Of a stretch of 6,066 nucleotides of DNA, positions 1-6,066 are shown piece by piece. The notes under the pieces are model-generated. The model did no database searches and had not been told where the DNA came from. It worked only from the letters and a program-made list of their open reading frames with translations. How positions within the stretch are numbered: the first letter of the stretch is position 1; each line of letters starts with the position of its first letter. Source of the stretch: Candidatus Latescibacterota bacterium (GTDB lineage Bacteria; Latescibacterota; UBA2968; UBA8231); the NCBI GenBank assembly GCA_021295675.1, contig JAGWBY010000151.1, positions 1 to 6,066 on the forward strand, read 5' to 3'. The position numbers and the translations under genes were made by a program.

Positions 1-516
1 CATCGTCAACTGTCCGATCCCACCCTTGGCCGCGGCATAGCCCGGCACGGTGATCCCGCCTTGGAAGGTCAGCACCGACGCGGTAAAGACGATCTTGCCC
101 CGGCCGCGCGCGAGCATCTGCTTGCCGAATTCTCGCGCCAGTACGAATTGTGCGTTTAAGTTGACCTCGATGACGTGGTCCCAGTCTTCGTCTCCATGTT
201 CCTCAGCCGGGGCGCGTCGAATGGTACCGGCGTTGTTGATGAGGATGTCGATTGGGCCGACCTCGGCGTTGACCTGCTCGACGAAGGCGCGGACTGCCTG
301 CCGGTCGCTGAAATCACAAGCGTAGCCTGTGAACCGTTTACCGCGTGCTGCAATGTCTTGGCCGACCTCGGAGTCTGCTTCCAGCGAGGCGCTGACGCCG
401 ACGATATCTGCTCCCGCCTCGGCCAATGCTTGCGCGAACCCGCGCCCGATGCCTCGGCGGCACCCGGTGACGAGGGCCGTCTGGCCGTCGAGCTTAAAAA
501 GATCCAATATGCTCAT
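1..516 (-). CDS. KduD-like short-chain dehydrogenase/reductase, N-terminal part (runs off window)
   Basis: An NAD(P)-dependent oxidoreductase of the classical SDR family; the visible 172 residues hold the Rossmann fold and the whole active site. The cofactor motif T-G-C-R-R-G-I-G is at residues 17-24, NNAG at 94-97, and the catalytic tetrad is complete: N119, S147, Y160, K164. The stretches LAEAGADIVGV (31-41) and FQGGITVPGYAAAK (151-164) resemble 2-deoxy-D-gluconate / 2-keto-3-deoxygluconate dehydrogenase KduD more than fatty-acid FabG, so a sugar-acid or polyol substrate is likely but not proven. The start ATG at 516 is supported by a Shine-Dalgarno AAGGA (528-524) seven bases upstream. The substrate-binding C-terminal third lies outside the window. 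The gene follows the HEPN gene by 31 bp but resembles the metabolic genes further upstream in composition; the bases just before its start are a remnant dehydrogenase tail. Confidence 0.93.
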   Translation of the reverse strand, partial: MSILDLFKLDGQTALVTGCRRGIGRGFAQALAEAGADIVGVSASLEADSEVGQDIAARGKRFTGYACDFSDRQAVRAFVEQVNAEVGPIDILINNAGTIRRAPAEEHGDEDWDHVIEVNLNAQFVLAREFGKQMLARGRGKIVFTASVLTFQGGITVPGYAAAKGGIGQLTM

Positions 517-517
517 G

Positions 518-541
518 CTATGTTCCTTGAGTGTCGATTAA
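518..541 (-). pseudogene. Remnant 3' tail of an MDR dehydrogenase gene directly before the SDR
   Basis: Read on the minus strand, 541-518 spells L-I-D-T-Q-G-T-stop, and the TAG ends one base before the SDR ATG. The same words (K-I-L-I-D-T-Q-G) form the C-terminus of the intact dehydrogenase at 2473-3507. Nothing upstream in this frame is dehydrogenase-like: the HEPN stop codon lies at 550-548. I infer that this is what is left of an earlier dehydrogenase-SDR junction. The piece also supplies the SDR's Shine-Dalgarno sequence, which may explain why it was kept. Confidence 0.5.
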
Positions 542-542
542 A
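525..542. repeat. Direct repeat copy 1 (18 bp), downstream edge of the inserted segment
   Basis: Plus-strand CCTTGAGTGTCGATTAAA matches 2492-2509 (CCTTGGGTGTCGATTAAA) at 17 of 18 positions in the same orientation. The two copies enclose 1,949 bp holding the CMD gene, the SDR remnant and the HEPN pair. This copy lies between the HEPN stop and the SDR start. Confidence 0.75.
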
Positions 543-547
543 GCGGT

Positions 548-1090
548 TCAATCTACGCGGTGAGCCTTATAAGATTCCTCGTCAAAGGCCACTTCGTCCA
601 AAGCTGGGACTTCTTCTTTCTTAAAGTACCACTTTGCAATGAGATTTTCGCCATCCACTGCTTGCACTGTAAGGTCGAAGGACACGTCTTGGTTTGGAAA
701 TATGGTCCTAATTTTGTCTCGCACTTGCTTCAGGTTTCCTAGGAAGGAACCGCATCGTTTAGGTACCTCAAATTCGACATTTACGAAAGGTGGCTTTTGC
801 TGTTTGAAAGCCTTTAGCCCATGTGCTGTCGTGAGAGAGCCGAGGTGGTATCTAAGCAGCCTGTCCCTATGAGTATCGACTTCAATGACTCCTGCCAAGG
901 CACGAGCGAGAGCGACCACAAAACGCACTAGGCAGCCGATCTGTACGCGGCTCAAGGTTAATCGGATGTTCTGATTTCTTGAACTCGAAAGGATTAATTT
1001 GTCTTTGCATATGGAGAAGGCCTTGTTATGTACGATCTCATTGCGATATGGGAGTGAGAGTGTAGGTATTTTTGGGTGGTGAATAGAGGG
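548..1090 (-). CDS. HEPN protein, 3' part (frameshifted from 994-1644); carries the R-N-x3-H motif
   Basis: This is the C-terminal half of the HEPN gene. Alone it could start only at a weak TTG at 955, with no good ribosome-binding site, but the frame is open back to a TAA at 1132-1130, and the part overlapping the upstream ORF is clearly protein-like. It reads L-P-Y-R-N-E-I-V-H at about 1054-1028, the HEPN ribonuclease motif, then a beta-like stretch (LILSSS), a helix (CLVRFVVALARALAGVIEVD) and a C-terminal alpha/beta region ending at 548. In the joined 365-residue protein the motif is R201-H206. Known HEPN domains use this Arg/His pair to cut RNA. The joining shift is one base (a missing C, or a -1 slip) near 1088-1092. 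I am confident the two pieces belong together, less so about whether the break is real or a sequencing error. Confidence 0.75.
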   Translation of the reverse strand, partial: PSIHHPKIPTLSLPYRNEIVHNKAFSICKDKLILSSSRNQNIRLTLSRVQIGCLVRFVVALARALAGVIEVDTHRDRLLRYHLGSLTTAHGLKAFKQQKPPFVNVEFEVPKRCGSFLGNLKQVRDKIRTIFPNQDVSFDLTVQAVDGENLIAKWYFKKEEVPALDEVAFDEESYKAHRVD

Positions 1091-1644
1091 GGATATTGGA
1101 GTTTGGATTTGTCCTTGAGGAGATCTAACTTATCCGTAAAACGCCAAGGAATCTCCTTGATTTTCCCCGCGCTGTGATTCTCTTCGAGTATCCATTCGAA
1201 GATCATATCTAGTACCTTATAGGAAGCTATAAAAACGAGAGGGGTCATTGTAAAAACGAGAGAGGTCATGTGGGGAGGAGTATAGAATTCTTCCCCAGAA
1301 TCCAGAATGACTTCGGTTCCTAGCTCACCGCTCCTGATCTTGAGCGTCGCTATGTCTGTGCCTCCGTCAAATATCTGGTATTCTGCCAGTTGATTGAGCA
1401 GCCAAAGCTCATAGTCCAACTTGTCTAGTAGCTTTTGCTGCGCTTTATGAGCGTACATGAAGTTATTTCTTTTTTTAATTATCTCATTCGGAGATGGTGA
1501 GCCTTCTGACACGCGGGAGCGCGATGCCGCCACTTCGGCTGCTAGCTGAAGTGCTCCAAAGTACCCCCCATGAGCAGAGACTTTTCCACGCCGCTCGGCC
1601 CCCAATCCCTTTGCTATGCGTTCCATGTCTAGCGTCGTACTCAT
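994..1644 (-). CDS. HEPN protein, 5' part (out of frame at its end)
   Basis: A 216-codon frame whose first ~184 codons are the N-terminal half of the HEPN gene; its last ~32 codons (from about 1092) look like out-of-frame translation that hides the RNEIVH motif. Residues 16-40 hold a compact Ala/Gly-rich segment (GAERRGKVSAHGGYFGALQL) that I recall from small uncharacterised bacterial proteins. Residues 54-180 are helix-rich, with KLDYELWLLNQLAEYQIF and SYKVLDMIFEWILEEN typical of the helices before a HEPN active site. Start ATG at 1644 has a good AGGAG (1655-1651) six bases upstream, inside the end of the preceding gene, whose stop lies 3 bp before this ATG: the pair should be translationally coupled. 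GC content falls sharply inside the gene, from about 63% (1501-1560) to about 33% (1441-1500). Confidence 0.78.
   Translation of the reverse strand: MSTTLDMERIAKGLGAERRGKVSAHGGYFGALQLAAEVAASRSRVSEGSPSPNEIIKKRNNFMYAHKAQQKLLDKLDYELWLLNQLAEYQIFDGGTDIATLKIRSGELGTEVILDSGEEFYTPPHMTSLVFTMTPLVFIASYKVLDMIFEWILEENHSAGKIKEIPWRFTDKLDLLKDKSKLQYPPLFTTQKYLHSHSHIAMRSYITRPSPYAKTN
1088..1092 (-). other. Probable frameshift site in the HEPN gene (C5 run)
   Basis: The minus strand reads TAT-CCC-CCT-CTA here. Adding one C (CCC-CCC-TCT-ATT) carries the upstream frame into the downstream frame and its RNEIVH motif. The shift must lie between 1129, where the second frame opens, and about 1054, so the homopolymer is the likeliest but not the only place. 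T-CCC-CCT is a poor -1 slippery heptamer because the P-site codon would re-pair on TCC, so an indel (real or from sequencing) is more likely than programmed frameshifting. Confidence 0.6.
1230..1271. repeat. 21-bp tandem duplication inside the HEPN gene
   Basis: Two adjacent 21-base units (1230-1250 and 1251-1271) share 18 of 21 bases, both beginning TAAAAACGAGAG. They are in frame and give consecutive seven-residue units MTSLVFT (126-132) and MTPLVFI (133-139) in a hydrophobic helix region. It may be a normal feature of the family or a local duplication. Confidence 0.7.
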
Positions 1645-1647
1645 AGC

Positions 1648-2034
1648 TCACTCCTCTGAAAAATTTCGGAACGCTAGGTACTCGTCTCCAATCACGAGCC
1701 CCACTTCTCCTTGACGAGCCTCACGTCCCATTCTTCGGCAGAAACTCCCGAGCTGGGCAAGACGCTCAGGATCATTGAGATCATCGGGTGTCGTATAACA
1801 GTGAATGATGATCGGCTCATCCTCGACTAGTACTGCCCCCATTTCATCATCGCGCCATACCCCTCTAGCTCGTGGGAATGCCGTAGCTCCTCCATATAAG
1901 TGTCCAAAGGTTCTGAGTGCCTCCGTTACCCAGTAATCTTGGTTTACCGATGTAATCCCGTCCCGTTCGACGCTTGGTATAAAAAGCACCACCAAGACCG
2001 CTTTACGACCGACCTGCAAATCCGCCATCTCCAC
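1648..2034 (-). CDS. 128-residue protein of unknown function paired with the HEPN gene
   Basis: I do not recognise a named family. The order of predicted elements is strand (AVLVVLFIP, 12-20), helix (DYWVTEALRTFGHLYGG, 33-49), two strands around GVWRDDEMGAVLVEDEPIIIHCY (58-80), helix (ERLAQLGSFCRRMGREA, 90-106) and a final strand (GEVGLVIGDEYLAF, 109-122): a beta-alpha-beta-beta-alpha-beta order like a ferredoxin/ACT-type fold. Striking residues are the F-G-x-L-Y-G-G turn, G-V-W-R-D-D and R-M-G-R-E-A-R-Q-G-E-V-G. It has no signal peptide or membrane helix and no nucleotidyltransferase GSxxxGxxxSD motif, so it is not an MNT antitoxin. GTG at 2034 is the chosen start because AGAGG (2044-2040) sits five bases upstream; ATG at 2028 is the alternative. 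Its stop lies 3 bp before the HEPN ATG. Its position suggests an antitoxin or regulator of the HEPN protein, which is inference only. Confidence 0.85.
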   Translation of the reverse strand: MEMADLQVGRKAVLVVLFIPSVERDGITSVNQDYWVTEALRTFGHLYGGATAFPRARGVWRDDEMGAVLVEDEPIIIHCYTTPDDLNDPERLAQLGSFCRRMGREARQGEVGLVIGDEYLAFRNFSEE

Positions 2035-2044
2035 ACGTACCTCT

Positions 2045-2077
2045 ATTATACTTTGTTGATATTGATGAGGATGTCAA
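2045..2077 (-). promoter_or_regulatory. Possible promoter for the HEPN cassette
   Basis: The minus strand has a perfect TTGACA (2077-2072) and a perfect TATAAT (2050-2045) before the 128-residue gene. The spacer is 21 bp, longer than the usual 16-18. A start about 7 bases past the TATAAT would fall near 2038 and leave out the AGAGG ribosome site, giving an almost leaderless GTG or ATG start. The TTGACA also comes from the V-D-I codons of the SDR remnant. It could be a fortuitous promoter or only coincidence. Confidence 0.25.
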
Positions 2078-2105
2078 CCGGTCCGACGGACCCAAAATCC
2101 CCATG
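2046..2105 (-). pseudogene. Remnant of an SDR gene between CMD and the HEPN cassette
   Basis: In the frame ending at TAA 2048-2046 this reads F-G-S-V-G-P-V-D-I-L-I-N-I-N, matching V-G-P-I-D-I-L-I-N-N (86-95) of the SDR at 1-516. At DNA level 2062-2087 matches 236-261 at 22 of 26 bases. Directly upstream, 2092-2117 matches the SDR start region 504-529 at 20 of 26, including a shared GCATG with the start codon. The remnant therefore seems to be an SDR start fused, out of frame and with about 75 codons missing, to the NNAG-motif region, then cut off before the NAG. It is too short to be functional and may be the scar where the cassette entered. Confidence 0.6.
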
Positions 2106-2480
2106 CTATTCCCCTTGGTTCTGTCCTTGAAGAACGGTCAGTGCATCCCAGGTCGCCGGAAATCCGCCGAAAGCGCTCATCTGCAACATGACCTCCTCAA
2201 TCTCCGTCCTTGTGGCTCCACAACCGAGGGCTCGGTCGATGTGAACAGCAAGCTGTTCCGGCCGGCCGAGAACCGTCAAGGCTGCGATTGTGCACAGCAG
2301 ACGGGTCTTAATGTCCAGCCCGTCCCGTCCGTACAGGTCATGCATCACGTGCTCCATCACGAGTCGCTCAAACTCGGGATGAAGTGTGCGCATCTTCTTG
2401 GCAGCGGCCTCTGCAGCGGCCTCTCCGAGCATCGTCGAGAGGACTCTGCGCCCTGCTTCGTAGCGTTCACTTTCAGTCAT
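2106..2480 (-). CDS. Carboxymuconolactone decarboxylase (CMD) family protein
   Basis: A 124-residue, all-helical, single-domain protein close in length and layout to gamma-carboxymuconolactone decarboxylase PcaC: an N-terminal E-R-Y-E-A-G-R-R-V-L (5-14), H-P-E-F (34-37), the core helix K-T-R-L-L-C-T-I-A-A-L (58-68), conserved H80 in L-A-V-H-I-D-R-A, then G-A-T-R-T-E-I-E-E-V-M-L-Q (88-100) and G-G-F-P-A (105-109). C63 and C87 do not form the CxxC of AhpD-type peroxidase partners, so a redox role is unlikely. The family includes decarboxylases and hydrolases of lactone rings, which would suit a pathway with sugar dehydrogenases, but with no other protocatechuate genes in view the true reaction is unknown. 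Start ATG 2480 has GGAGG (2489-2485) four bases upstream and overlaps the end of the dehydrogenase gene by 8 bp. Confidence 0.9.
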   Translation of the reverse strand: MTESERYEAGRRVLSTMLGEAAAEAAAKKMRTLHPEFERLVMEHVMHDLYGRDGLDIKTRLLCTIAALTVLGRPEQLAVHIDRALGCGATRTEIEEVMLQMSAFGGFPATWDALTVLQGQNQGE

Positions 2481-3507
2481 ACATCCTCCCCCCTTGGGTG
2501 TCGATTAAAATTTTGACCGCATCGGTGCCCGCCGCCAGTCGGGCGAAGGCGTCGGGGAGTGCGTCTAAGGGAAGGTGTTCGGTAATCAGCTCGTTGAGCG
2601 GCAGCGTGCCGCTGGCTGCCAGTTCGATGGCGCGGTCGTAGTCTTCGGGTTCGTACACGCGCACGCCGCACATTTTTAACTCGCGCCAAAAAAATTGAAA
2701 GAGATCGACTTTGGGTGCGTCAGCGAAAATCGCTACTACCACGATCCGGCCTCGGACTTTGGCGAGTTTAGTCATTACCTCGGCTCCGGCCGACGAGCCG
2801 GAGACCTCGAAGACTGCGTCGGCTCCCGCGCCTTTGGTCCAGGTCTCGACGTAGGAGACTAAGTCCTCCTCCAGCGGATGGACGGTTTCCAGTCCCAGCG
2901 CGTGCGCCGCTTGCAGCCGAAAGGCATTGACCTCGGCCACTCGCACCTCGGCCCCCGCGTGTTGCGCCACCAGCGCATTGAGTAGGCCGATTGGCCCGCC
3001 GCCAATCACCACCACCTTCTCGCCCGGCACCACCTCGCCCAAGCGCACGTCGTGGCAGGCAACTGCTAGCGGCTCAACTAGAGCACCCAGTGTCAGCGGC
3101 ATGTCGTCCGGCAGGCGGTGCAGTGTATGGGCCGGCACTGTCCACGACCCCTGAAAGGCCCCCGGACTGTCGATGCCGATGAAGTTGAGGTTTTGGCAGA
3201 TGTGGCCATTGTCGGCGCTGCAGGCCGCGCACGCGCCGCAAGCCTCTAAGGGGCGCACGACGACCGGATCGCCCACGGCCCAGCCTTCGACATCGGCCCC
3301 GACTTCTGCGATCCGTCCCGACATCTCGTGCCCAATGACTTGGGACATGTCAATCCGGCGGTCCTGATGGCCTAGGTAAATGTGGATGTCCGTGCCGCAT
3401 ACGCCGCAATAGGCCACTTCGATCCGCACCTGATCTGCGCTAGGGGATTGCACTCGGCACTCGCCGATTTCGACGGTGCGGTCGCCGCAGTAGTAGGCTG
3501 CCTTCAT
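2473..3507 (-). CDS. Zinc-dependent medium-chain dehydrogenase (threonine/sorbitol/butanediol dehydrogenase-like)
   Basis: A complete 344-residue MDR-family NAD(P)-dependent alcohol or polyol dehydrogenase. Catalytic zinc ligands are C37 (in C-G-V-C-G-T-D), H60-E61 (G-H-E) and E145 (V-E-P-L-A-V). The structural zinc lobe has four cysteines, C90, C93, C96 and C104. The Rossmann cofactor motif is V-I-G-G-G-P-I-G at 167-174. The closest recognisable types are L-threonine 3-dehydrogenase, sorbitol dehydrogenase and 2,3-butanediol dehydrogenase; motifs do not choose between them. ATG at 3507 overlaps the phosphodiesterase stop as ATGA, typical of translational coupling; the frame stays open to 3594, but that extension lies within the phosphodiesterase gene and is not MDR-like. 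The tail L-I-D-T-Q-G-G-R-M-Y-D differs from the second copy of this tail (L-I-D-T-Q-G-T-stop) at 541-518, so the original C-terminus may have been replaced. Confidence 0.95.
   Translation of the reverse strand: MKAAYYCGDRTVEIGECRVQSPSADQVRIEVAYCGVCGTDIHIYLGHQDRRIDMSQVIGHEMSGRIAEVGADVEGWAVGDPVVVRPLEACGACAACSADNGHICQNLNFIGIDSPGAFQGSWTVPAHTLHRLPDDMPLTLGALVEPLAVACHDVRLGEVVPGEKVVVIGGGPIGLLNALVAQHAGAEVRVAEVNAFRLQAAHALGLETVHPLEEDLVSYVETWTKGAGADAVFEVSGSSAGAEVMTKLAKVRGRIVVVAIFADAPKVDLFQFFWRELKMCGVRVYEPEDYDRAIELAASGTLPLNELITEHLPLDALPDAFARLAAGTDAVKILIDTQGGRMYD
2492..2509. repeat. Direct repeat copy 2 (18 bp), upstream edge of the inserted segment
   Basis: CCTTGGGTGTCGATTAAA on the plus strand, 17 of 18 identical to 525-542. 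Here it encodes part of the dehydrogenase C-terminus (L-I-D-T-Q-G). Identity stops abruptly on both sides: the coding context upstream differs from the HEPN tail, and downstream this copy runs into the G-rich ribosome-binding site of the CMD gene. Confidence 0.75.
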
Positions 3508-4490
3508 CGCAGATGCCAGTCCGCGTCTTCGAGTGCCTCGTAAATCACGCCGCCCTCTACCTGCGCGGGCATGGGGATGCCGAGCAAGTAGCACAGCGTC
3601 GGCGCGACGTCCACCGCTCGCACCTGACGTTCGAGCGCCAGCCCTTGCTTTACGCCGGCACCGGCCAGCACGAACGTGCAGTGCTGGCCGCCGATACCGA
3701 GGGTTGCCGAGGGGAGCTGCTTGCCGTGCGCGCCGTCGTATTCGGGCCGCAGCGCATAGACCACATCGCCGACGAGTTCGCCCTCCAGATTGACCATCTC
3801 GGCGTCTTCCCGCGTCAGCGCGAGGGCAAAGGGACCGCGCCCGGTCTGCGGATGGCGATAGGCGTGGAGGGCTTCGATGAGGTCGAGCCGCGTTTGCTCG
3901 TAGTCGCTAGGATCGACGATCCCCGTAGGCTCGCGTCCCTTGAGATTGACGAAGATGTGGACCAGCCCCACGTTGGCCGCCCGCGTCCGCTGCCAGTCGA
4001 TCTGCTTTTTTTCGGCGTCCGCATAGACCAAAAAGCCGGCCTGTTCCAGCACCTCGGCGATATCGACTGGCCGGTGCTGGTTGGGGGTGCCGCCGTGGTC
4101 GGCGACGACTGCGACGACGGTGTCGTCATCGGCCAGCTCGACGACGCGGCCGATCATGCGGTCTATGGAGGCGTAGGTCTCGGCGACGCCGGCTTGGCAG
4201 CGCGCCAGCGTGTGTGGGTCGGCTCCGCTGCACTCGTCGGCCTGCGAGAGGAAGAAGTGGCTGGTGTAATCCGAGGCGTGGGTTTCGATGAACAGCACGT
4301 CCCAGTCGTTGCTCTCCGTTAGGTAAGCAGCGACCTCGGCCAGCCGCTGGTGGTGAAAGTCCAACAGCTCGAAATAGGTGTCGTCATCGACTACGCCCAA
4401 AGCGTCGCGTGCCGGATTCTGCAGGAAATTGCCGATGCGCCACTTCCTCCGGCTGCGTGTACCCGCTCGCTGGCCAGACCTGCGGCACAA
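3504..4490 (-). CDS. Type I phosphodiesterase / nucleotide pyrophosphatase-like hydrolase, C-terminal part
   Basis: The C-terminal half of an alkaline-phosphatase-superfamily hydrolase. The first 15 codons are out-of-frame sequence inside the N-terminal half; true coding begins near 4445 with K-W-R-I-G-N-F. Using joined numbering (this frame plus 299), it supplies the remaining metal ligands: D373 and H377 in S-D-Y-T-S-H-F, D430-H431 in V-A-D-H-G-G, and H569 in G-I-G-G-Q-H, followed by the family's V-D-V-A-P-T-L-C-Y-L-L-G-I-P. Enzymes of this family cleave phosphodiester, phosphonate or pyrophosphate bonds at a two-zinc site. The stop overlaps the start of the dehydrogenase gene (ATGA at 3507-3504), so it belongs to the same operon. 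No ribosome-binding site supports an independent start near 4490. Confidence 0.87.
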   Translation of the reverse strand: MCRRSGQRAGTRSRRKWRIGNFLQNPARDALGVVDDDTYFELLDFHHQRLAEVAAYLTESNDWDVLFIETHASDYTSHFFLSQADECSGADPHTLARCQAGVAETYASIDRMIGRVVELADDDTVVAVVADHGGTPNQHRPVDIAEVLEQAGFLVYADAEKKQIDWQRTRAANVGLVHIFVNLKGREPTGIVDPSDYEQTRLDLIEALHAYRHPQTGRGPFALALTREDAEMVNLEGELVGDVVYALRPEYDGAHGKQLPSATLGIGGQHCTFVLAGAGVKQGLALERQVRAVDVAPTLCYLLGIPMPAQVEGGVIYEALEDADWHLR

Positions 4491-5388
4491 AAAGCTCGAA
4501 GATATCGCCTGCTGCGCTCAGGCTAACGAGCTTCATGCGCACGTAGCCGTCAAGCGCTTGGCCGTCAATCTCAAAGTCGTCCTTCCACCACTCGGTCCAT
4601 TGGCCCACCGCTAGCTCGGCGACTCGGTCACTCGCATTGCGGCTGCGGCAAATGAGCAGCCGGTCGTAGCCCTTGTCGGCTGAGGCGTATATCAGGCCGT
4701 AGAAATGCTTAGGCGTTCCCTCCCGGTTTTGTCGGCGCATGTCAGCCCGACCGCGTTTGAGCGGTTCGATGACCAGCGCCACTTCTTTGGGCGGCAGCGC
4801 AGATGTGGGCGCGTCTTGCCATCCTTCCGCCGGGACGATCTCCACTGGATCGACGTTGCGCACCTTTTGCAGGGCGCTCGGGTCCAAAGTCTCAGGGTCG
4901 CGTGGCCCGCCGATTGGCCGGGGCGTCCAGCCGCCGCCGACAAAGAGATGGTATCCGGTGATCTGATGCACGTTGGACACGCCAGGGCCGGTGCCCTCGA
5001 CTTGGATGCCGGTTTGCACGGTCGGCGGCCAAGACATTTCCCACTTGACCAAGATCGGTTTTTTACCAGCCCGCTCGACCGTGTTCCACATGTACTCGGC
5101 CTGCGAAAGCTCGGTGTTGATGCCCCACACGGTCTCGTCGAGACGTCCGCCGAGCTTGCGGATGTTGAAGTCCATGACTTGGTGGGTTCCCGCCCAAGCT
5201 CCGGTCGAAGTGGCCGTCCAACCGGGTGGGGTCAGGGTTGGAAAGACGCCGATCATGGGCCGCTTGACGCCCTGCGCCATGAGCTGACCCAAGTGGGGCA
5301 TGTGACCTTGATCCACCATGTGTTGCACCAACTCCATGGCGGCTCCGTCCATGCCAATGACGATGGCTTTTTGCGCCGGACTCTGCAT
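4384..5388 (-). CDS. Type I phosphodiesterase / nucleotide pyrophosphatase-like hydrolase, N-terminal part
   Basis: The N-terminal half of the same hydrolase, real up to about 4447 and out of frame after that. It begins directly with the fold's first strand and metal ligand, I-V-I-G-M-D14-G, and has the nucleophile loop F-P-T-L-T53-P-P-G-W-T, in which T53 corresponds to the catalytic threonine of NPP enzymes; S-T-G and G-T-H-Q follow as usual. There is no signal peptide, so the enzyme is probably cytoplasmic. Start ATG 5388 has AGGAG (5399-5395) six bases upstream and lies 14 bp after the sulfatase stop. Joined with the downstream piece the protein is 627 residues with every expected metal ligand present, so the enzyme would be active if the reading frame is intact in the cell. 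Confidence 0.87.
   Translation of the reverse strand: MQSPAQKAIVIGMDGAAMELVQHMVDQGHMPHLGQLMAQGVKRPMIGVFPTLTPPGWTATSTGAWAGTHQVMDFNIRKLGGRLDETVWGINTELSQAEYMWNTVERAGKKPILVKWEMSWPPTVQTGIQVEGTGPGVSNVHQITGYHLFVGGGWTPRPIGGPRDPETLDPSALQKVRNVDPVEIVPAEGWQDAPTSALPPKEVALVIEPLKRGRADMRRQNREGTPKHFYGLIYASADKGYDRLLICRSRNASDRVAELAVGQWTEWWKDDFEIDGQALDGYVRMKLVSLSAAGDIFELFVPQVWPASGYTQPEEVAHRQFPAESGTRRFGRSR
4444..4452 (-). other. Frameshift site joining the phosphodiesterase halves
   Basis: The minus strand reads CCG-GAG-GAA-GTG in the upstream frame; the downstream frame reads AAG-TGG-CGC. Dropping one G from the pair at 4447-4446 gives CCG-GAG-AAG-TGG and the continuous peptide Y-T-Q-P-E-K-W-R-I-G-N-F. The overlap of the two frames (4384-4490) bounds where the change can be. 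A one-base insertion, real or a sequencing error, explains it; I see no known +1 programmed-frameshift signal. Confidence 0.75.
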
Positions 5389-5402
5389 AGTGTTCTCCTG
5401 TG

Positions 5403-6066
5403 TTAGATTCCCAAGCGTTCGTACTGCTCTGATGGAGCTTCACATTCTTCCATCACCCCCCGCAACAGTCCCTGCATTCGCTGCTCCAAGGTTGGGTCAG
5501 AGAGCGGGTTTTCTTGGCGCGGGTCTTGCTCTAGGTCAAAGAGCAGGGTCCCGTACTCGTGCTGTTTGCTGCGCGTGTGTCCTTGCGTCCGCAGCAGCCG
5601 GCAGCCCTTGCTGAAACCAAACGGCTCGGCGAGCTCCACGTTGGCAAATTCATCGACTGAGAAGGGGTCGCGCATGTGCGTGGGCATGAGCGTGTAGTTG
5701 TACAGGGGCTGGTTGTCGGGCTGGGTGGGTGCGCGCATGTACACGTAGCGGCCGTCGGTAACGTTTACCTGCCCGCCGTGGTTGCCGAAAATCGCGGCCT
5801 CGCGCACGGGGGTGTCGCTTGCGCAGACTTCGCGCAGGCTCTGGCCCAGCATGTCTGCGGTCGGTTCCATCTCAAAGAGATCCAGCAAGGTCGGCCCCAA
5901 GTCGATCGACGGCTGCACTAGACTCTGCCGCCGCTGACCCGCTTGGCCGCAGCGAGGATCCCAGACGAAGAACGGCGTGTTGGACAGCTCGCGGTACCAA
6001 GGCATCTGTATCTTGGCCCACAGGTCGTGCTCGCTGAGCAGGAAGCCGTGGTCGGTCCACACGATG
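5403..6066 (-). CDS. Sulfatase, C-terminal part (starts outside window)
   Basis: The last 220 residues of a type I (formylglycine-dependent) sulfatase. It enters in frame at the window edge with V-W-T-D-H-G-F-L-L-S-E-H-D-L-W-A-K, the conserved metal-site block of the family, where D-H-G binds the catalytic calcium. Then come I-D-L-G-P-T-L-L-D-L-F, the standard helix after the active-site domain, V-T-D-G-R-Y-V-Y-M-R, and the C-terminal subdomain marker L-L-F-D-L-E-Q-D-P-R-Q-E-N-P-L. The N-terminal C/S-x-P-x-R formylglycine motif lies outside, so activity and export cannot be judged. The enzyme would release sulfate from a sulfated carbohydrate or similar ester. TAA at 5405-5403 lies 14 bp before the phosphodiesterase start, so the two superfamily members are probably cotranscribed. 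Confidence 0.95.
   Translation of the reverse strand, partial: IVWTDHGFLLSEHDLWAKIQMPWYRELSNTPFFVWDPRCGQAGQRRQSLVQPSIDLGPTLLDLFEMEPTADMLGQSLREVCASDTPVREAAIFGNHGGQVNVTDGRYVYMRAPTQPDNQPLYNYTLMPTHMRDPFSVDEFANVELAEPFGFSKGCRLLRTQGHTRSKQHEYGTLLFDLEQDPRQENPLSDPTLEQRMQGLLRGVMEECEAPSEQYERLGI

Follow-up and report, generated by a model that had tools for sequence, protein, structure and literature searches.

A frame-broken HEPN-like gene with a modular N terminus in an inserted cassette of a Latescibacterota bacterium

Introduction

On the minus strand of a 6,066-nucleotide stretch of DNA from Candidatus Latescibacterota bacterium (contig JAGWBY010000151.1, positions 1 to 6,066; the window, below), two open reading frames (ORFs), 994-1644 and 548-955, raise the question of whether they are separate genes or the remains of one. 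Annotation would file them as two hypothetical proteins and leave a motif concealed in the second frame. An earlier interpretation made from the letters of the window (the sequence-only reading) had proposed a single HEPN ribonuclease (RNase)-like gene, broken by one base. Here we report that 994-1644 and 551-1129 are almost certainly a single gene of a HEPN-like family, as judged from sequence comparison, and that a 25-nt gap breaks it in this assembly. Going beyond the earlier proposal, we find that the gene occupies the second position in an inserted cassette of two genes and that its N terminus forms a separate module. A broken HEPN gene alone would be ordinary; the interest lies in the modular layout of the family and in its partner.

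Results

One gene in two frames

On the minus strand, the 548-955 ORF belongs to a longer frame without stops, 193 codons running from 1129 to 551, which overlaps the 216-aa ORF (994-1644); the 548-955 ORF is the portion of this open frame that follows the first in-frame TTG. Translation bears out the claim of the sequence-only reading that the frame, open upstream to 1129, encodes LPYRNEIVH (1054-1028); over the same stretch, the 994-1644 frame reads ...SHSHIAMRSYITRPSPYAKTN instead. The 216-aa frame alone was used as the query of a homologue search, and the best 120 of 280 matches were listed and classified. Thirty-eight of these 120 are 359 to 378 aa long, in line with the ~365 residues anticipated, and the motif that was predicted to be concealed in the second frame (R[NH]x[IV][VI]H) is present in all 38. 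They comprise 36 close relatives and two proteins of a zinc-finger type (P0073 and P0075; 37-38% identity), which have a different N terminus.

P0001, an intact protein of 373 aa with 99% identity across 92% of the 216-aa query, spans both sequences: it reads ...YLHSHS up to the point where the first frame fails, then ...LLPYRNEIVHNKAF, and from there follows the second frame to its end. Because P0001 runs from the first frame into the second, the two frames are assigned to one gene, a finding reached without building the joined sequence. P0006, at 217 aa the relative closest in length to the 216-aa frame, has a different ending from that frame: it continues through RNEIVH and only then breaks off. 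The separate pieces, as had been predicted, reveal no family; the best Pfam score is 0.017, to an unrelated DUF, and PADLOC gives none.

The lesion

DNA alignments to two related loci locate the break. Compared with L001 (88.8% identity, 1493 aligned bases), the window is without 25 nt at 1051, and compared with L002 (87.7% identity, 1490 aligned bases), it is without 25 nt at 1054; the remaining gaps are all multiples of three against L001 (3, 3, 12, and 21) and amount to 3, 3, 3, 3, and 6, plus one +1/-1 pair, against L002. On this point the sequence-only reading has to be corrected, as it had placed a single-base break near 1088-1092, whereas the actual lesion is the 25-nt gap near 1051-1054. 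The homopolymer at 1088-1092 is real (GGGGG on the plus strand); a one-base slip at this C5 run is ruled out, since the first frame matches P0001 beyond the run and the gap sits at 1051-1054.

The break may be an artefact of assembly or strain mixing, with the gene whole in the cell and no 25-nt gap in its DNA; we regard this as a real possibility, although we lean against it. Elsewhere in the 6-kb window, another gene, unrelated to this one, is 17 nt short at 4435 when compared with L002, and P0001 is intact despite being 99% identical across the first half. Neither gap, however, is a homopolymer slip, and gaps of 17 to 25 nt are unusual for base-calling errors. Breakage also recurs at other sites in the family, although these cases too are known from assemblies: P0005, P0040, P0042, P0044, and P0046 are truncated relatives with out-of-frame tails that are broken elsewhere, and genome G044 carries a split zinc-finger member. 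P0006, P0041, and P0043 likewise end early, with tails of just 1 to 3 residues. The second affected gene is phosphodiesterase-like (3504-5388, minus strand) and is split into two frames where L002 has one 654-aa ORF; this second gap speaks for an artefact or a decaying region.

Conservation and fold of the HEPN core

Conservation was assessed in the 139 members of the HEPN-core profile among 189 proteins (the 50 module-only proteins were left out), of which 4 to 5 are gapped at the motif. R209 is kept in 133/134 and H214 in 134/135 aligned residues, and in helix 2 the acidic residues D146 and E150 each persist in 135/136; P0259 and P0291 have each lost R or H. The arginine and histidine are near-invariant down to 24-27% identity, and the Rx4-6H motif occurs in 35/35 proteins of set A4. 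The residue after the arginine is N in 111, H in 7, D in 2, and G in 14 of 134 proteins, with G belonging to a proteobacterial branch.

The predicted model of P0001 has helices at 66-88, 124-158, 192-215, and 241-258, with R209 and H214 (R201 and H206 in the sequence-only reading) at the end of the third. It is thus helical, as that reading had expected, and its four helices and the position of the motif fit the published HEPN description, so far as the available part of PMC3710099 gives it. The top rows of the VIA fold search with this model are HepT (7.6 and 7.4) and Csm6 (5.2); absence of a structure from the VIA list does not exclude a match. No Pfam HEPN family lies above its curated cut-off in the proteins scanned (P0001, P0045, P0049, P0073, P0275, P0286, P0241, P0297, P0246, and others), the nearest rows being RiboL-PSP-HEPN (E values of 0.049 and 0.053) and Swt1 (0.17), and PADLOC has no model matching the HEPN-like protein.

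N-terminal modules and the zinc-finger sister branch

The front end of the HEPN-like protein also occurs without the HEPN core. Among the best 120 of 280 matches described above, 38 combine the module with the HEPN motif and 27 have the motif without the module; 35 have the module with an RHH-like tail, 7 have it with an XRE-type tail, and 10 have it with neither, the rest being 1 fragment and 2 RHH-like tails whose module escaped the pattern. Support for the XRE tail is firm (HTH_3 at 2.2e-12 in P0068). The RHH-like identity of the other tails is a weak assignment from sequence pattern: in Pfam, RHH_5 matches 1/27 at 0.025 and HTH_32 matches 3/27 (best 0.0015), and no PDB match falls below an E value of 1.1. 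The module is joined to an XRE-type HTH in P0051, P0061, P0068, P0074, and P0076 to P0078, and P0051 and P0061 seem to have internal module-like repeats.

A wider HEPN profile search, in which 7998 candidates were scored and the best 120 of 285 matches listed, added at least 68 proteins: 32 of the zinc-finger type, 29 standalone, 4 with another N terminus, and 3 fragments. The four consist of a module with an earlier start, a longer standalone protein, P0275, and P0286. A third type of N-terminal extension (150 to 180 residues) precedes the HEPN core in P0275 (1-178) and P0286 (1-165), and no Pfam domain passes the cut-off in it. A tree of 35 rows pairs the module branch with the zinc-finger branch as sister groups, each forming one side of a branch. 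It also places the standalone proteins P0045, P0047, and P0048, strongly supported, with the module branch, a placement that fits both gain and loss of the front end.

The front end of the sister branch is a YgiT-type zinc finger, with TIGR03831 above the cut-off in 6/8 proteins scanned and below it in those of L020 and L024. The MqsA profile is matched in these eight over the first 59-77 of 127 positions only, and its C-terminal HTH was not found. Among nine zinc-finger loci of the phylum, six have a DUF4258 gene as their immediate upstream neighbor (G004, G040, G033, G003, G002, and G054, the last at a contig end), the G044 locus retains a 21-residue DUF4258 remnant, and no DUF4258 gene was found upstream at G005 and G053. 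The DUF4258 assignment has Pfam E values of 1e-23 to 9e-22 in three proteins scanned, and at L004 the DUF4258 and zinc-finger-HEPN genes overlap by 4 bases.

The partner gene and the inserted cassette

In the window, the position directly upstream is taken by another gene, A, which ends at 1648 where the HEPN-like gene starts at 1644. The predicted fold of protein A is closest to phage SAM (S-adenosylmethionine) lyase and then to CutA/PII (pLDDT 84; 6zm9 and 6znb in the top rows of Foldseek and VIA), and the model has the GlnB/PII-like alpha-beta sandwich of SAM lyase. A homologue search with A listed the best 120 of 1372 matches, with 30 aligned with the query among them. In this 30-member alignment, Q108 and D72 are kept in 30/30 and residue 73 is E in 20 and Q in 10. 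The positions of the catalytic Glu, which in SAM lyases ends the T-loop, and of the Gln in the B-loop were assigned by order along the chain rather than by superposition, and that of the catalytic Glu is uncertain. There is no nucleotidyltransferase Pfam match in the 30 members. A resemblance to DUF3574 was rejected, as no Pfam row supports it.

The two genes belong to an inserted stretch (Table 1), for which the ADH-SDR junction provides empty sites in six genomes. Small, side by side, and carried on a mobile segment, A and the HEPN-like gene have the layout of a toxin-antitoxin pair.

Table 1. Features of the cassette and the broken gene in the window
Feature	Position	Strand	Remark
Inserted stretch: gene A, HEPN-like gene, CMD-family gene	543..2489		missing from the ADH-SDR junction in six other genomes
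20-bp direct repeat, left copy	2490..2509	-	3' end of the ADH gene; 17/20 identical to right copy
Partner gene A, 128 aa	1648..2034	-	adjoins the HEPN-like gene on its 5' side; ferredoxin-like fold predicted
First half of the broken HEPN-like gene	994..1644	-	ancestral frame from 1644 to ~1055; out-of-frame tail from ~1054 to 994
N-terminal module, ~50 codons	1495..1644	-	also on small proteins ending in RHH-like or XRE-HTH regions
Second half of the broken HEPN-like gene	551..1129	-	open frame; matches relatives from ~1054 down to 551
Break site	1051..1054	-	window 25 nt shorter here than L001 and L002
LPYRNEIVH, Rx4H motif of the HEPN active site	1028..1054	-	frame translation
20-bp direct repeat, right copy	523..542	-	just before the SDR gene

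The carboxymuconolactone-decarboxylase (CMD)-family gene, at 2106-2489 between ADH and A, is found in the window only and not at this place in L001 and L002. Window positions 2050-2120, and the region between ADH and A in L001 and L002, contain by eye an apparent decayed copy of the start of the SDR gene, and it looks as if the insertion had duplicated the junction. The genome of L001 has a second ADH copy on another contig (G001:C107:19770-20792), which is 94% identical to the window ADH. After the SDR gene of L001, two genes past the HEPN gene, lie CRISPR-Cas-like genes (L001:4433-11395), which by eye we take to resemble type I-E.

Distribution

In the genome surveys, the HEPN family is found in 10/64 genomes of the phylum of G002, in 1/369 of the class of G009, and in 1/301 of the phylum of G006, the sole member being the centre itself in the latter two. 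A is found in 2/64, 2/301, and 1/13 genomes (the 13 include one of the 301), and the two of the 64 are exactly those having module-HEPN. HEPN-family relatives occur on plasmids; by the searches made, no HEPN relative was found in phage records or viral contigs, and no A on viral contigs or plasmids. Standalone HEPN members are found in Proteobacteria, Chloroflexota, Dadabacteria, and archaea. The homologue of Pseudomonas peli adjoins a Thoeris-like ThsB-ThsA-ThsB set, and a methyltransferase/IIG-like gene is found in the vicinity of the L008 member. In five loci looked up for defence neighbours, L011 has 0/2 genes and L013 one weak match.

Discussion

Proposed mechanism and alternatives

One broken gene, whose intact form would encode an RNase kept on a leash, is the best overall explanation that we can offer, and our confidence in it is evenly balanced. 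The broken gene, the near-invariant Rx4H in HEPN-like helices, the modular front ends, the fixed partner gene, and the cassette insertion have direct support; from them we infer cleavage of RNA by R209/H214, control via the front-end module, and growth arrest when control fails. This mechanism, a partner-controlled HEPN RNase that would arrest growth on release, is put forward tentatively, at slightly less than even confidence. The intact protein would be a metal-independent RNase effector, cutting RNA through R209 and H214, and its N-terminal module would be the contact by which the product of the upstream gene binds and restrains it. The restrainer would be protein A in the branch of the window and probably the DUF4258 protein in the sister branch, with the YgiT-type zinc finger as its point of contact. 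The second gene of an ordinary pair of either kind encodes a DNA-binding domain; here the HEPN domain stands in its place, which would give a partner-binding module plus an RNase. If A were lost, modified, or ligand bound, the RNase would be freed and growth would stop, the behavior expected of a toxin-antitoxin or abortive-infection module. Both genes lie in an inserted cassette, and frequent breakage is a trait shared with many growth-arresting genes of this sort.

The standalone members, which have no partner, weigh against a general antidote logic. They favor, together with the plasmid-borne relatives, the Thoeris-like neighbors in P. peli, and the methyltransferase/IIG-like gene near the L008 member, a self-standing phage-sensing effector (of abortive infection or restriction-like) that needs no antidote and whose modules add localisation or regulation. 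We consider such an effector rather unlikely, as PADLOC has no model for the HEPN-like protein, of the five loci looked up for defence neighbors, L011 gave none in two genes and L013 one weak match, and the phage records and viral contigs searched gave no relative. It is improbable that the HEPN domain is without nuclease activity and serves a regulator as a nucleotide- or RNA-binding domain: some HEPN families have lost the motif and bind substrates, according to the accessible portion of PMC3710099, and the PII/SAM-lyase-like fold of partner A is of a nucleotide-binding type, but near-invariance of R and H at such low identity is not required of a mere binding domain. That the gene is split or read by programmed frameshifting, and functions as two proteins or through recoding, is very improbable, because even though both frames are open and overlap over 994-1129, 25 nt of conserved coding sequence are gone, so that residues kept in relatives would still be absent, and close full-length relatives have a single frame.

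Returning to the partner-controlled RNase, a wider proposal is more speculative still and, in our view, doubtful: the HEPN RNase family may at least twice have replaced the DNA-binding half of an antitoxin-like protein (in the YgiT/DUF4258 pair and in the A pair), the partner-binding half leashing the RNase, and the SAM-lyase/PII-fold leash in the branch of the window would couple the cutting of RNA to S-adenosylmethionine or to a nucleotide signal derived from it. If right, this would add a HEPN family without a name in the libraries searched here, and an exchange of an antitoxin DNA-binding domain for an RNase domain in a pair of sister branches whose front ends are unrelated, an exchange that we did not find in the literature searched; the SAM-lyase-fold partner would link a small-molecule sensor or lyase to an RNase outside type III CRISPR.

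Comparison with known systems

The HEPN superfamily RNases, as described in the part of PMC3710099 at hand, share with the present family the Rx4H at the end of helix 3, a mostly polar residue after the arginine, the acidic residues of helix 2, and an all-alpha bundle. The present family differs in falling below every Pfam cut-off, in an added C-terminal alpha/beta domain (295-373), and in its swappable N-terminal modules. Csm6 of type III CRISPR (PDB 5yjc) differs: Pfam detected no CARF domain in the HEPN-like proteins scanned, and the genes near L001 showed no type III set. The sister branch resembles MqsRA and DUF4258-YgiT pairs in having a DUF4258 gene followed by a YgiT-type zinc finger, but the antitoxin HTH half is absent and a HEPN-like domain is in its place.

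HepT carries H-x-Y, which is absent here, the HEPN-like family having H-N-K/N. In MntA-HepT (PDB 6m6w and 6m6u), the partner is a minimal nucleotidyltransferase, whereas A is SAM-lyase/CutA-like and free of a nucleotidyltransferase Pfam match. Compared with the phage SAM lyase Svi3-3 (PMC7877911) and the CRISPR SAM-AMP lyase (PMC12255297), both taken from partial texts, A has 11-16% identity, and the position of its catalytic Glu is uncertain.

The literature searched, which leaves most subscription papers outside its scope and consists in part of partial texts, holds no description of HEPN behind these antitoxin-like front ends, and HEPN and DUF4258 co-occur there in one paper, as separate table entries. 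The nearest precedent seen is PaREP1, in which, going by the portion of PMC2701414 available, a HEPN domain is likewise fused to an antitoxin-type domain; there HEPN is joined to RHH, whereas here HEPN replaces the RHH-like or HTH region.
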